A DNA stretch of 16,002 nucleotides. It comes from Parcubacteria group bacterium CG10_big_fil_rev_8_21_14_0_10_38_31. Its GTDB lineage: Bacteria > Patescibacteriota > Minisyncoccia > GCA-002772825. The DNA is taken from positions 1,921 through 17,922 of the forward strand of contig PFDM01000041.1 of NCBI GenBank assembly GCA_002772825.1, given 5' to 3'. Under the pieces are notes generated by a model. That model saw nothing but the letters and a program-made list of their open reading frames with translations, was not told the origin of the DNA and made no database searches. The position numbers and the translations under genes were made by a program. Below are positions 3,315 to 15,844 of this stretch, in pieces; position 1 is the first letter of the stretch; every line of letters starts with the position of its first letter.

Positions 3315-5114
3315 ATGTTAAAAAAAATATTATTTCTCGGTACAATATTTGCCTTCGGGTTTATTTTCTTTTCTTTGTTTGACACTGTTCAAGCCCAGGC
3401 GAATCCTTTTGATATCCAGTTTCCCGTTTCTGAGCTTGGTAATTGCAAATCTATGAGCGAATGCAAGCTGTATTGTGATGAACCTGAAAACATCAGTGCT
3501 TGCTCCATTTTTGCAGAGAAGCAAGGTTTGATAGATCGTAAGGAAACGGGGAAAGTGAAAACCATAGAAGCAAAATTTGGCCCAGGGGGATGTAAAAACG
3601 CTCGTGAATGTGATGATTATTGTCGTGTACCAGAGCATGGTGAAGAATGTATTTCAAGTGCTGTTAAAGAAGGATTTATATCTCAGGCAGAGGCGGATGA
3701 CATTCTTAAATTTATGAAGCAAGGAGGTAAAGAAAAGACCAATTTAAATGATTCGCGCCCCGCGCCTAAAAAAGGACCGAAAGGACCAGAGGTTGATAAG
3801 GAGAAAGCTAGTAATCTTATAGAGACAGTTGGTGGTCCCGGAGGATGCTCTACTTTTGAAGAATGTGATAAATTTTGTAGCGACATAAGAAACGATGATA
3901 CCTGTATGTCATATGCGATTGAACATAAATTGATGAAGACAGAAGATATTGAAAAATTTCAGAAACTGATGACAATAGAAGGTCCTGGTGGGTGTCGTGG
4001 TAGAGAATGCGAATCTTATTGTGAACAGCCTGGACATGAATCAGAGTGTATGAAGTTCGCTGTAGAACAAGGTTTTATGAGTGAAGATGAATTTCAGGAA
4101 GCTAAGAAATTCCTAGACGCATCTGAGAAAGGCGGTCCTGGAGGTTGCCGTGGTAGAGAGTGTGAGAAATATTGTGAGGATCAAGCGCACGGCGATGAGT
4201 GTTTCAATTTTGCTAAAGAGCATAATCTACTTCCAGAGGAAGAGATTCAGAGGATAGAAAAATTTAAAGATATTAAGAATAATTTAGAGATTAAAGGTGG
4301 TCCTGGCGGGTGTCGCGGTGAGGCAGAATGCAGAAATTATTGTTCGGATATGACTAATTTTGAAGAATGTGCAGCCTTTTCAGTTAATGCCGGATTTGTG
4401 AATCAAGATAAAGCTAAAGATATATTGAGGCAATTTGTTGAAATTGAAAAATTTAGACCTCAAGGAGATGATTTTATGCCCTTTGATAGAAACACCAATC
4501 CTCCTGGTGAATTTATGCCTCAAGGTGAAGATTTTGGTCCAAACAGTGAATTTAATAGATTTGGACCACCACCTGGATTTGAAAAAGAGTTTGAAGACCG
4601 ATTTAAACAGTTTGAGCAGTTCCGTGGCGATTTTGAGCATATGCCAATTCCGCCTAGAGTTGAAGATGGCTCTTATGAAAGATTCAATCCACCTCCTGTT
4701 TTTGAGGAGGAATTTCCTCCGTATGATCAGTTTCCTGGTGGTGGAGAATTTCAGCCAAGCGAATTTGATAATTCTAATATAGAATTTAGACAAGAATTCC
4801 AAGGAGAATTTAATGAACAATTTAAAGCTGAATTTGAAAATCGCTTTGATGAATTTAGACCAGCTGACGGTTCTGTCTATCCAACTACGGGAGATGATTA
4901 TATAAAGCCATTTGATCAAAATTTTATCCCACCTAGTGATGGTGAATTTTATCAACCTTCATTTAATGATGGAGGTTATCCTCCCCCACCTAGTGATGGT
5001 GAATTTTATCCGCCTCCGTCCGGTGATGAGTCGTATTTATCACCAAGTGACGAGATGATGTTATTACCAACCGTACTTTTCCCCATATTGCCATTTTTGA
5101 AAATACTATTTTAA
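3315..5114 (+). CDS. Secreted cysteine-rich repeat protein with acidic Phe/Pro-rich C-terminal half
   Basis: 599 aa with no recognised named family. Residues 1-29 are a classical signal peptide (Lys-Lys, hydrophobic core, 'TVQAQA'), giving a mature N-terminus NPFD. Residues 44-352 hold six modules with the spacing C-x4/5-C-x3-C-x8-C, usually introduced by GPGGC and followed by a helix with an FA...G(F/L) pattern; first Cys residues are 44, 93, 178, 227, 278 and 333 (24 Cys in all, every one inside a module). Even cysteine numbers and export suggest disulfide-stabilised helical modules. Residues about 381-580 are acidic, disordered-looking and rich in Phe, Pro, Glu and Asp, with 'PPSDGEFY' repeats. 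The last about 18 residues are strongly hydrophobic, either a C-terminal anchor or the product of a late frameshift. A structural or adhesive surface role is inference. It follows the NPF-repeat gene by 42 bp. Confidence 0.85.
   Translation: MLKKILFLGTIFAFGFIFFSLFDTVQAQANPFDIQFPVSELGNCKSMSECKLYCDEPENISACSIFAEKQGLIDRKETGKVKTIEAKFGPGGCKNARECDDYCRVPEHGEECISSAVKEGFISQAEADDILKFMKQGGKEKTNLNDSRPAPKKGPKGPEVDKEKASNLIETVGGPGGCSTFEECDKFCSDIRNDDTCMSYAIEHKLMKTEDIEKFQKLMTIEGPGGCRGRECESYCEQPGHESECMKFAVEQGFMSEDEFQEAKKFLDASEKGGPGGCRGRECEKYCEDQAHGDECFNFAKEHNLLPEEEIQRIEKFKDIKNNLEIKGGPGGCRGEAECRNYCSDMTNFEECAAFSVNAGFVNQDKAKDILRQFVEIEKFRPQGDDFMPFDRNTNPPGEFMPQGEDFGPNSEFNRFGPPPGFEKEFEDRFKQFEQFRGDFEHMPIPPRVEDGSYERFNPPPVFEEEFPPYDQFPGGGEFQPSEFDNSNIEFRQEFQGEFNEQFKAEFENRFDEFRPADGSVYPTTGDDYIKPFDQNFIPPSDGEFYQPSFNDGGYPPPPSDGEFYPPPSGDESYLSPSDEMMLLPTVLFPILPFLKILF
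3444..4370 (+). repeat. Six cysteine modules encoded in tandem
   Basis: Module Cys positions are 44/50/54/63, 93/99/103/112, 178/184/188/197, 227/232/236/245, 278/283/287/296 and 333/339/343/352. The last two intervals, x3 and x8, never vary; only the first varies (x5, x5, x5, x4, x4, x5). Modules 4 and 5 share GGCRGREC-E-YC and look like the most recent duplicates. Confidence 0.85.
4928..5010 (+). repeat. 26-bp direct repeat in the low-complexity tail
   Basis: Identical 26-nt copies at 4928-4953 and 4985-5010, 57 bp apart and in frame, encode PPSDGEFY. They indicate recent slippage or duplication in the C-terminal half of the cysteine-rich gene. Confidence 0.8.
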
Positions 5115-11473: not shown

Positions 11474-12745
11474 ATGGAAGACTTAACAAAATCACAACTT
11501 ATTTTATTAGCTCTTCTTGTGAGCTTTGTCACCTCAATCGCTACCGGTATAGTAACGGTTAGTTTGGTGAATCAAGCTCCCCCTCAAGTGACGCAGATGG
11601 TAGGTAGGGTTATAGAAAAGACTGTTGAAGTAGTTAGTCCTAGCGATTCGGATATTGCATCAGTCGTTGAAACGATAATTGTTTCTGATGAAGAGATGAC
11701 AGTTAAGGCGGTAGAGAAAGTAATACCCACGGTCGTCAGTGTTGTAGTGACAAAGGATGTTCCCGTGCTGGAACAATATTTTGTAAATCCATTTCAAGAT
11801 GATCCTCTTCTCCGTGATTTTAGTCTTAATGTCCCTCAATACAGACAGAAGGGAACAGAGGAGAAAAAAGTATCAAGTGGAACAGGATTTATCATATCAG
11901 ATCAGGGTATGATAGTGACTAATAAGCATGTGGTGGCTGATGAGAAAGCTAATTATTCTGTAATATTAAATGACGGACAGAAGTTTGATGTAGAAATTAT
12001 TGCTCGTGACCTCATGCAAGATATTGCTATCTTAAAGATTAAGAAGGAAGAAAATGAAGAAAGTAAAACTTTTAAATACGCCTCTCTTGGTAACTCAGAT
12101 AATATAAAGATAGGTCAGAAAGTTATCGCCATAGGCAATGCATTGGGGGAGCTTCAAAATACTGTTTCAGTGGGTATTGTATCGGGATTAAACAGGGAGA
12201 TAGTGGCTTCCGGTGCTATGGGGGAGGAGCGTCTTTTTGAGGTTATCCAGACTGATGCCGCTATAAATCTTGGTAATTCAGGAGGACCGCTTCTGGATCT
12301 CAGGGGGAAGATTGTCGGTATAAATGTTGCCAAATCAAGTAGTGGAGAGAATATCGGTTTTTCTCTACCTGTTAATATTATCAAGAAGATAATTTTAGAT
12401 ATTGAAGAGTTTGGCGAGATTAAATACGCAATGTTGGGTGTAAGATACATCACGATAGATAATCAAATATCAAAAGAAAAAAATCTTAGTGTGGATTATG
12501 GAGCGATGCTTGTTTCCGATAAGGAGAATAACGCTGAAGCTGTCTTTAAGGATTCTCCCGCCGATAAGGCCGGTTTGAAAGAAGGAGACATTGTATTAGA
12601 ATTCAATGGAGAGAAGATTACCAGCAAGAAGACACTCAGTCTCTTTATCTCTAAATCAAGAGTCAACGACGAAGTTATTTTGAAAGTATTAAGAGGTGAA
12701 GAAAATTTAGACATTAAGGTTACGATGGGGGAACAGCCGAAATAG
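11474..12745 (+). CDS. Membrane-anchored HtrA/DegP-type serine protease with one PDZ domain
   Basis: 423 aa, S1C trypsin-like protease of envelope protein quality control. One N-terminal transmembrane anchor (about residues 8-32) and an extended linker follow. Catalytic His152 lies in 'VTNKHVVAD', Asp183 in 'MQDIAILKI' and Ser269 in 'INLGNSGGPLLD', so the triad is complete. The oxyanion region and the strand 'IGFSLPVNIIKKI' are typical. A single PDZ domain (about 330-420) holds 'SPADKAGLKEGDIVLEFNGE'. An unusual feature is 'EQYFVNPFQDDPLLRDF' (residues 100-116), in the loop region before the protease domain, where HtrA proteins often have DPFFRRFF-like text; it carries the same VNPF tetrapeptide that is repeated in the small protein at 2997-3272. 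Expressed from its own strong promoter and followed after 65 bp by clpB. Confidence 0.93.
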   Translation: MEDLTKSQLILLALLVSFVTSIATGIVTVSLVNQAPPQVTQMVGRVIEKTVEVVSPSDSDIASVVETIIVSDEEMTVKAVEKVIPTVVSVVVTKDVPVLEQYFVNPFQDDPLLRDFSLNVPQYRQKGTEEKKVSSGTGFIISDQGMIVTNKHVVADEKANYSVILNDGQKFDVEIIARDLMQDIAILKIKKEENEESKTFKYASLGNSDNIKIGQKVIAIGNALGELQNTVSVGIVSGLNREIVASGAMGEERLFEVIQTDAAINLGNSGGPLLDLRGKIVGINVAKSSSGENIGFSLPVNIIKKIILDIEEFGEIKYAMLGVRYITIDNQISKEKNLSVDYGAMLVSDKENNAEAVFKDSPADKAGLKEGDIVLEFNGEKITSKKTLSLFISKSRVNDEVILKVLRGEENLDIKVTMGEQPK

Positions 12746-12810: not shown

Positions 12811-15522
12811 ATGCCACCATTTTCAAATTTTACAATTAAAGCTCAAGAGGCGGTCCGTAAGGCCCATGAGCTTGCCATAGAACGGGGGCAAAATCAGATA
12901 GATGAGCTCTATCTTCTTGCTTCTTTGTTGCTTCAAGATGAAAGTCTTGTTATATCTATTTTAGATAGACTGGAGATAGACATAATGCTCTTAACAGATT
13001 CTGTGATGGATAGTCTTGACGAAGGAACTCAATCTGTTGTTATGCCACAGTCCTATCAGATGTATCTTTCTCCTGCGCTTGGTAAGGTGCTTGAGACCGC
13101 TCAGAAGAATGCGGCCGACTTGAAGGATGATTTTATATCAACAGAACATCTGTTCTTATCTCTTATAATGACACCATCTAAAGCGGCTGATATTCTTTCT
13201 AGATTTCACCTAGATAAAAGCTCAGTAATGAACATCTTAGACGATTTAAAGAGTTCTAAGGTGGCGGACATAGAAACACCAAAGAAGTTTCATTTTCTTG
13301 AGAAATATGCGCGAAATTTAACAAAACTTGCCAAAGAAGACAAGCTTGATCCGGTAATAGGCAGAGATAATGAAGTTAGGCGCTTAATGCAAATATTATC
13401 AAGGAGAACAAAAAATAATCCTATCTTAATAGGTGAAGCGGGTGTGGGTAAGACAGCAATTGCTGAAGGTCTCGCTCAGAAGATTTCTAAAGGAAGCGTT
13501 CCTGAGCTTATAAAGGATAAAGAATTAGTATCACTTGATTTAGGGTCACTTGTTGCCGGCACGAAGTATCGGGGTGAGTTTGAAGACAGATTGAAGGGGT
13601 TGATGCGCGAGGTGGAACAGGCGGAAGGGAAGATAATTTTATTTATAGATGAGATCCACACCATCGTCGGTGCAGGGGCCGCTGAGGGAGCACTTGATGC
13701 TTCCAATCTACTGAAGCCGGCATTGGCCAGAGGTCACCTAAGAGCAATCGGCGCCACTACATTAAAAGAATATCAAAAATATATTGAGAAAGACCCAGCT
13801 TTAGCCAGAAGATTCCAGCCGGTCTTTGTAGAAGAGCCATCTATTGATAATGCCATCTCTATAATGCGCGGACTTAAGGAAAAGTATGAGCTTCATCATG
13901 GTGTGAGGATAACTGATATGGCTATTAAAGCATCTGTTACTCTCTCAAGTCGATATATTACAGACAGATTCTTGCCTGATAAAGCCGTAGACCTTATAGA
14001 TGAAGCGGCTTCTGCTTTAAGACTTGATCTTGAGAGTGAACCAGAGGAAATTGAGGTAGTGAACCGTGAGACTATGAAGCTTGAAGTAGAAAAAGAGGCG
14101 CTTAAAAAGGAGATTGAGAGGAATGGTGGCTCAAAAGAACGCGCCACTCTCGCGGTAAAACAAGCCAAGCATAGGATTAAGAAAATAAACAAAGAGATAA
14201 GCGACTTAAAGGAGAAGACTTCGGAGCTTAGTTTAAAGTGGAAAAATGAAAAGAAAGCCATCTCAGAGATAAGTCAGATTAAAAAAGAGCTTGAGAAACT
14301 TAGAATAGAAGCTGACAACGAAGAAAGGAAGGGTGACCTGGCGAGAGTGGCAGAATTAAGGTATGGTTTAATTCCTGAAAATGAAAAAAAGATGAAGTCT
14401 GAGGAAATAAAGCTCAGAAAACTTCAGATATCGCGTAAGCTTTTGAAAGAGGATATTACCGAAGAAGATATTGCGAAAGTTGTATCAAGGTGGACAGGTA
14501 TCCCCGTATCAAAGATGCTAGAAGAAGAACAGAAAAAACTTTTACGCATAGAAGATGAATTTAAGAAAAGAGTTATCGGGCAAGATGAGGCTATCACTAA
14601 AATTGCCAATGCGATTAGACGTTCCAGAGCGGGTATTTCAGATATTAACCGACCGATAGGTTCATTTATGTTTCTTGGTCCAACTGGTGTTGGTAAGACA
14701 GAGCTTGCAAAGACTGTCGCAGGATTTATGTTTAATGATGAAAAAGCCATGGTTCGTGTTGATATGTCGGAGTATATGGAGAGACATACAGTATCTAAGC
14801 TCGTAGGTTCTCCTCCCGGTTATGTCGGATACGAAGAAGGTGGACAACTTACAGAAATAGTAAGACATAGGCCTTATTCAGTGATTTTATTTGACGAGAT
14901 AGAGAAAGCTCATCCGGAAGTGTTTAATATAATGCTTCAGGTTCTTGATGACGGTCTATTGACTGATGCTAAAGGCAGACATGTAAACTTTAAGAATACA
15001 ATAATCATAATGACTTCAAATGTCGGCGGAGAATATGTAAGACAGATGGAGAAGCTGGGCTTTGCTTCAGAAGAAGATACTGAAGAAAAGAAGAGTGGCG
15101 AACTTAAAGATAAAATACAAAAAAGTCTTGAAGCGAGATTCCGTCCGGAATTCATCAATAGGCTTGACGAGATTATTATCTTCAACCCTCTTTCAAGTGA
15201 AAATATAAAAGATATCGTTGGCAAGCAGGTTGAGATAATTGCTAAAAGATTAAGAGAAAAAGAGATGATCCTAACCGTGTCAGAAGAAGCACTTTCAATT
15301 TTAGCAAAAGAAGGATATAATCCTCATTATGGCGCAAGGCCTTTGAAGCGTCTTATCCAAAGTAAAATATTGAATCCTGTAGCTGAATACATAGTCTCAG
15401 GGGAAATAAGGGGCGGAGGAAAAGTAATGGTTGGAGTTGATAAAGATAATCAGATTGTCATAAATATACCACCTAAATCTTCTTCTGGACATACTAAGAA
15501 AAAAGTAAAGGCTAAAAATTAA
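12811..15522 (+). CDS. clpB: ClpB-type AAA+ disaggregase carrying a ClpC-like LGF tripeptide
   Basis: 903 aa Hsp100 ATPase that extracts polypeptides from aggregates. N-domain about 1-150 with the typical repeat pattern. Nucleotide-binding domain 1: Walker A 'GEAGVGKT' (208-215), Walker B 'ILFIDE' (276-281). The middle coiled coil, about 405-550, has full ClpB length and ClpB signatures ('EPEEIE', '[19 protein letters not shown]'). Domain 2: Walker A 'GPTGVGKT' (623-630), Walker B 'VILFDE' (691-696), C-terminal '[11 protein letters not shown]'. After 'IIIMTSNVG' comes '[13 protein letters not shown]', so LGF (749-751) stands where ClpC has its ClpP-docking tripeptide and ClpB has none. The Lys-rich tail is extra. 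There is no Shine-Dalgarno and no CIRCE-type heat-shock operator upstream. Function is either disaggregase alone or with a ClpP partner. Confidence 0.93.
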
Positions 15523-15576: not shown

Positions 15577-15660
15577 GGGTAGGTGGCGGAGTGGTCAATC
15601 GCACCAGACTGTAAATCTGGCGGCTTTATGCCTTCGGGGGTTCAAATCCCTCCCTGCCCA
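15577..15660 (+). tRNA. tRNA-Tyr (anticodon GTA)
   Basis: 84 nt with class-II structure. Acceptor GGGTAGG pairs with CCTGCCC (one U-G), the D stem is GCG/CGC, and anticodon stem CCAGA/TCTGG encloses loop CTGTAAA with GTA at 15611-15613. A long variable arm (15621-15635) has stem GGC/GCC, and the T arm is GGGGG-TTCAAAT-CCCTC (one G-U). The discriminator is A at 15660. The following bases are CAG, so CCA is not encoded. The last 18 nt plus two following bases recur downstream. Confidence 0.97.
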
Positions 15661-15844
15661 CAGCGAACGAGGTGAGATGAGGGTAGGAGCGAGCCAACTG
15701 CTTGGCTCGCGTGAGGGATTTGAAGGCCGTAGCGATGCGCGAGTTTACCGAAACGAAGTGGAGGTAAGGCGAGTGCCGCGAGGCAGGGTCGTGAAAAATT
15801 TTCGTCAGAAAATTTATTCCTGACCAAATCCCTCCCTGCCCACA
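15643..15844 (+). repeat. 20-bp direct repeat of the tRNA-Tyr 3' end
   Basis: CAAATCCCTCCCTGCCCACA occurs at 15643-15662 (tRNA T arm, acceptor and 2 flanking bases) and again at 15825-15844, 182 bp apart. A tRNA 3' end repeated this way is the usual signature of site-specific integration (att sites), but the enclosed segment is only about 160 bp and has no gene, and no integrase is in the window. Confidence 0.85.

Follow-up and report, generated by a model that had tools for sequence, protein, structure and literature searches.

A ClpB-clade Hsp100 of Patescibacteria with a ClpP-docking-type loop, a probable natural counterpart of the engineered BAP disaggregase

Described Hsp100 systems and the clpB locus

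Among the closest described systems is BAP, an engineered protein in which E. coli ClpB carries the P-loop of ClpA (PDB 5ofo; Weibezahn et al. 2004, as described in papers citing it) and which, combined with ClpP, is presented as a degrading disaggregase (PMC5540906, PMC4023160, PMC2829514). Canonical ClpB and Hsp104 are described as having neither a phi-GF motif in the corresponding loop nor a protease partner (PMC5540906, PMC10149685). LGF is given as the motif of M. tuberculosis ClpC1 and ClpX (PMC4416901), and in S. aureus ClpC the G672D, F673D change is reported to abolish the interaction with ClpP, so that both residues, G and F, are needed (PMC12521514). Within a set of Actinomycetota proteins, the ClpC groups are reported to be uniformly with LGF and the ClpB groups uniformly without it (PMC10149685). 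The same study (Jiang and Schmitz 2023) presents ClpIa of Actinomycetota, a double-ring Clp protein other than ClpC that has LGF and for which ClpP is the proposed partner, together with sister forms that lack LGF. Literature searches, by titles and abstract openings, returned no report of a natural ClpB with the motif.

The protein described here resembles BAP in combining a ClpB body with what sequence and a structural model indicate to be a ClpP-docking type of helix-loop-helix tip in D2; it differs in that BAP was engineered, whereas the present loop is native and conserved. Domain order, a long middle domain and clade are shared with canonical ClpB and Hsp104, from which it departs by its motif. 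With the ClpC proteins of B. subtilis and S. aureus and with ClpC1 of M. tuberculosis it has the position of the loop and the type of motif in common, yet it belongs to a separate clade and its middle domain is of another length class. ClpIa is a parallel as a non-ClpC protein with LGF, although ClpI is described as a third group with an M-domain of ClpC length (PMC10149685).

The gene lies in a stretch of 16,002 nucleotides (the window) from Parcubacteria group bacterium CG10_big_fil_rev_8_21_14_0_10_38_31, where the list of open reading frames gives clpB at 12811-15522 on the plus strand, as are all its features below, encoding 903 amino acids. The best NCBIfam model is TIGR03346 (ClpB), matched over residues 7-880 with 1184.4 bits, which is below the curated cut-off of 1232.1; the protein is therefore filed as a ClpB-clade variant, by its place in the tree, and not as a canonical ClpB. 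Pfam models recover Clp_N, two AAA modules, the AAA lid and the D2-small domain. The N-terminal (Clp_N) region covers about residues 1-150 (12811-13260; PF02861 in two stretches, the best at 97-145) and is followed by the D1 AAA module at residues 205-318 (13423-13764; PF00004). The ClpB-type middle domain (14044-14427) has long predicted helices at residues 412-438, 446-507 and 510-539 and a RYG-IPE signature, and the D2 AAA module at residues 614-788 (14650-15174; PF07724) is followed by the D2 small domain at residues 794-874 (15190-15432; PF10431).

Upstream of clpB, a gene on the same strand (11474-12745, plus) ends 65 bases before it. Its product, judged by eye, is presumably an HtrA-like serine protease, having an N-terminal membrane segment, the sequence GNSGGPLL and a PDZ-like tail. 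The two genes perhaps form one stress operon; a search of the window for a CIRCE operator found none. A tRNA-Tyr gene follows immediately downstream of clpB (15577-15661, plus), and elsewhere in the window (3315-5114, plus) a protein of 599 amino acids is encoded that looks secreted by eye and has GGPGGC repeats rich in Cys and a tail rich in Phe, Pro and Glu.

The LGF motif, its loop and its conservation

As the original prediction stated, LGF occupies residues 749-751 (15055-15063, codons CTG GGC TTT), and it occurs only once in the protein. It sits in an extended loop region, residues 740-776 (15028-15138), which measures 37 amino acids from TSNVG to FRPEFINR. The equivalent loop of four reference ClpBs, none of which has the motif, measures 27 residues (E. 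coli), 28 (T. thermophilus), 34 (Bacteroides) and 15 (M. tuberculosis). Loop length was dropped as a distinguishing criterion, since the reference ClpBs span 15 to 34 amino acids, and it is the motif, not the length, that sets the protein apart. Among the 86 Patescibacteria ClpBs placed in the tree described below, loops measure 34-46 amino acids in the 64 with the motif and 24-36 in the 22 without it.

In a comparison with PDB sequences over residues 696-790, LGF aligns with the VGF of B. subtilis ClpC, the alignment being gapless up to the motif. An AlphaFold2 monomer model built from 32 sequences (mean pLDDT 77.8, pTM 0.50) predicts a helix at residues 740-749, a turn and a second helix at 755-776. 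LGF sits at the tip of this helix-loop-helix; the motif of ClpA has itself been described as a helix-loop-helix (PMC5540906, PMC2829514). Residues 751-760 have a pLDDT of 59, and such low confidence at the turn is consistent with a flexible tip. On the question raised with the original prediction, whether LGF is buried away from the surface facing ClpP, the monomer model reaches as far as a tip at the position that aligns with the ClpC motif.

Conservation in close homologues, the first check attached to the original prediction, is extensive. All 120 nearest homologues listed when ranked by D2 carry [LIVMF]GF, as LGF (97), IGF (20), FGF (2) or MGF (1). Because ranking by D2 might favour the loop, homologues were re-ranked on residues 1-545 only (N-D1-M), and the motif was found in 115 of 115 readable sequences among the best 120; the other five are fragments of 574-686 amino acids that end before the motif, and the two lists overlap. 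Among GTDB loci it is present in 78 of 80, the exceptions being one with a shortened loop (L253) and one whose loop lacks the motif (L256). Among the named records of this GTDB set are Giovannonibacteria, Tagabacteria, Taylorbacteria, Nomurabacteria, Kaiserbacteria, Staskawiczbacteria and Falkowbacteria, all of them Parcubacteria/Paceibacteria or their relatives. As a control, 120 ClpBs retrieved with a profile of the E. coli, Bacteroides and T. thermophilus proteins all have a loop of 27 amino acids without the motif. These controls are mostly enterobacterial, and ClpBs beyond Patescibacteria and Enterobacterales are covered by few references, so the loop is not claimed to be unique to Patescibacteria.

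It could be argued that LGF is a neutral relic or a chance motif of a charged loop, as 1.3% of 100,000 shuffles of the loop letters contain [LIVMF]GF. A single sequence would accordingly be weak by itself, but the conservation given above removes chance. When 32 relatives are aligned, nothing in this fast-changing loop from G739 to F777 is invariant between these ends except G750 and F751, which correspond to the pair that S. aureus ClpC needs for its ClpP interaction (PMC12521514), and GF is kept in 47 of the 51 ClpB-types of the class sample. A relic or accident is thus extremely improbable.

ClpB descent and the hybrid question

Judged by sequence, the 903-aa protein is a ClpB by descent. 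A whole-protein tree of 116 proteins, built without the loop columns, contains 86 of the 88 classed Patescibacteria ClpBs (those of G246 and G211 were too broken), and a branch with SH-aLRT support of 99 separates these 86 and the ClpBs of E. coli, Bacteroides and T. thermophilus from the ClpC-types and ClpA. The N-D1-M tree alone gives the identical split between ClpB and ClpC-ClpA, also with a support of 99. The middle domain, which the original prediction had called clearly ClpB, is in keeping with this: between two fixed motifs it spans 164 amino acids, compared with 147-182 (mostly 151) in Patescibacteria ClpB-types and 147-148 in the three reference ClpBs, versus 85-89 in the ClpC-type rows that could be measured (19 of 20; the twentieth has 28). 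Additional ClpC-type rows give 82-92 amino acids, plus one at 26. Neither of the marks of ClpC membership, a short M-domain and a place in the ClpC clade, was found for the 903-aa protein.

A different history would derive the protein from a ClpC whose middle domain became larger, or from recombination of a ClpB front half with a ClpC D2. It draws on the D2 region, where residues 696-790 match B. subtilis ClpC with 107 bits and ClpB with 85 bits in the PDB comparison, and where the free D2-only tree does not recover the ClpBs as one group; constraining the GF-ClpBs to group with the ClpCs costs 15.4 log units relative to that free tree and is not rejected (p-AU 0.33; 75 of the 116 rows). Against such a history stand the branches with a support of 99 that place the protein with the ClpBs in both the whole-protein and N-D1-M trees, TIGR03346 (ClpB) as the best family, and the best D2 tree found without the loop, which keeps all ClpBs together and lies 26.8 units above the free search. 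A ClpC origin or a recombinant is therefore improbable. The proposal of a natural ClpB/ClpC hybrid holds for the combination of features; a fusion or recombination chimera finds no support in the separate N-D1-M and D2 trees and two AU tests, although D2 alone is compatible with it.

On the ClpB tree, the motif changes four times. A single gain followed by losses would fit these changes, although the tree does not separate gain from loss; the clearest loss is seen in family f101 (G196, G221), which is without the motif and nested within a motif-bearing clade.

ClpP, other Clp unfoldases and a proposed mechanism

The source assembly comprises 584,783 bases in 63 contigs and is 90.2% complete. 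As the original prediction would require, it encodes a ClpP, a single canonical one, in which 119 of 199 aligned residues are identical to E. coli ClpP and the catalytic S, H and D are kept. L37, L62, I104, F126 and L128 are likewise identical in the two proteins. The aromatic patch of E. coli ClpP is given as Y74, Y76 and F96 (PMC4416901), of which Y76 is kept here, the other two positions being N and H. A search for AAA_2 (Pfam), positive in all 14 control genomes, returned one protein at E <= 0.001, the 903-aa ClpB, so that the check for a separate clpC turned up no second Clp-type unfoldase in this assembly of 90% completeness; ClpX was not found at E <= 1e-40. At this completeness a ClpX or ClpC may have been missed, but a genome of the same genus given as 100% complete agrees with the picture: it has a ClpB with the motif (93% identical), one ClpP and no further AAA_2 match stronger than about 1e-5. 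The source genome also encodes components of the DnaK system, an HSP70 of 663 amino acids (826 bits) and GrpE (117 bits).

In a survey of 64 genomes of the class, a ClpB-type with the motif (ClpB-GF) was found in 47 and one without it in 4, and 13 had no full ClpB-type; a 201-aa fragment with LGF (G213) was not counted as a ClpB. Canonical ClpP is present in 44 of the 47 motif-bearing genomes, the other three (G235, G225, G197) having divergent ClpP-like proteins only, and none of the seven genomes without a PF00574 match (G193, G075, G202, G211, G220, G226, G244) has a motif-bearing ClpB. A motif-bearing ClpC-type accompanies ClpB-GF in 10 of the 47, and a ClpX-sized AAA_2 protein in 6 more. 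ClpB-GF is the sole motif-bearing Clp unfoldase among strong AAA_2 matches in 31 genomes (matches above 34 bits were considered, reaching about E = 1e-5), and in 18 of these 31 there is, besides, another double-ring protein whose shorter loop lacks the motif.

Other Clp-related proteins were noted in these searches. Most of L096-L134 (e.g. in G061, G205 and G199) belong to a second Clp-like family, mostly of 750-950 amino acids and common in the class, whose loop of about 25-35 residues after TSNA has no hydrophobic-GF motif. Divergent ClpP-family proteins (L155-L158, in G235, G225, G243 and G197) are the sole ClpP-like matches in some genomes and occur as neighbouring pairs in G225 and G243. 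At L298 (G228:C26:5900-8300), a 419-aa single-ring Clp-like AAA+ protein with an LGF loop and a divergent ClpP-like protein of 208 amino acids are encoded within 2.4 kb, possibly a second, small Clp system in the class.

The phylum survey (192 genomes) classed only ClpB-types matched through the middle domain, leaving out split or fragmentary ones (e.g. G044); 45 were classed among the matches listed, 26 with the motif and 19 without. IGY (G090) and LGY (G145) were counted as motif-bearing, as were ClpC-types with WGF (G231, G247). ClpX occurs in 3 of the 192 genomes (G019, G039, G057), all three with a motif-less ClpB. In the union of both surveys, canonical ClpP is present in 61 of 65 motif-bearing genomes versus 13 of 23 motif-less ones, and all 13 of the latter have a motif-bearing ClpC-type (10 genomes: G147, G106, G166, G014, G067, G030, G123, G221, G196, G223) or ClpX (3). 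Fisher's test gives p = 1.3e-4 for 61/65 against 13/23, a value that ignores kinship and is not independent evidence; since the motif changes only four times on the tree, there are 2-4 independent pairs and the association is not significant. Outside ClpB, a GF-type motif in genomes without a ClpP match was seen in the ClpC-types of G121 and G008 (84% complete) and in a small AAA+ protein of G107, and G247 has ClpP and its WGF ClpC-type, as expected. ClpC-length proteins without the GF motif were also observed in three genomes without a ClpP match (L282, L283 and L284, in G013, G052 and G058) and in one that has ClpP (L292, in G076).

The surveys bear on whether the GF loop has a docking target other than ClpP (a regulator, a different peptidase ring or the hexamer of which it is part), with ClpP having other partners or acting alone. 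Consistent with this, no canonical ClpP accompanies ClpB-GF in G006 (87% complete, no ClpP match), G235, G225 and G197, or in 5 of 48 motif-bearing GTDB genomes. Of these 48, 43 have canonical ClpP, 3 have no ClpP match (their completeness being unknown) and 2 have divergent forms only, these two being the G235 and G225 assemblies; a prediction made beforehand, that ClpP would be present in nearly all of them, thus roughly held. At least four of the 48 are class-survey assemblies by their coordinates (G249/G235, G254/G225, G255/G201, G286/G219), so this set is not an independent sample. G248 has ClpP, contradicting a prior prediction of none, and its motif-less ClpB is the only AAA_2 protein at E <= 1e-15. 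Set against these cases are the position of the motif, which is that of the ClpP motif in ClpC, the canonical ClpP of 61 of 65 motif-bearing genomes, and the 29 of the 31 genomes with ClpB-GF as sole motif-bearing unfoldase that have canonical ClpP. A target other than ClpP is thus unlikely, though less so than a recombinant origin.

The favoured reading, in which we have good but not full confidence, is that the protein is a natural counterpart of BAP, a ClpB disaggregase whose D2 loop docks on ClpP; ClpP binding, feeding and a switch between refolding and degradation are what we infer. Six LGF loops, projecting from the lower face of the hexamer, would fit into hydrophobic clefts of the ClpP encoded in the genome, and a polypeptide threaded through ClpB would enter ClpP, as with BAP. 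In this way, ClpB-GF could replace the missing ClpX, ClpA or ClpC as the ClpP unfoldase of the lineage, and its ClpB middle domain, with the encoded DnaK and GrpE, would preserve the disaggregation mode. It could be speculated that the choice between release and degradation depends on the supply of ClpP or on a switch involving the middle domain and DnaK.

In a large group of ultra-small bacteria, a ClpB with a dock thus probably also feeds proteins to ClpP. ClpB-GF is a conserved natural exception to the rule that ClpB is without the motif, which makes the motif alone an unsafe basis for naming a protein ClpB or ClpC. It also offers a native system, in place of BAP, with which to address the disputed threading of whole chains by ClpB, as framed in PMC5540906. 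More broadly, and with the balance tipping only slightly in its favour, one Hsp100 alone, in the form of a ClpB that has a native ClpP dock, may have replaced ClpX, ClpA and ClpC across much of a class of Patescibacteria, performing both DnaK-linked disaggregation and ClpP feeding, and such a ClpB may lose its motif, as in the nested f101 case, and revert to pure disaggregation where ClpX or a motif-bearing ClpC exists. If true, a docking ClpB would explain how ClpP is used in genomes that lack ClpX, ClpA and ClpC.
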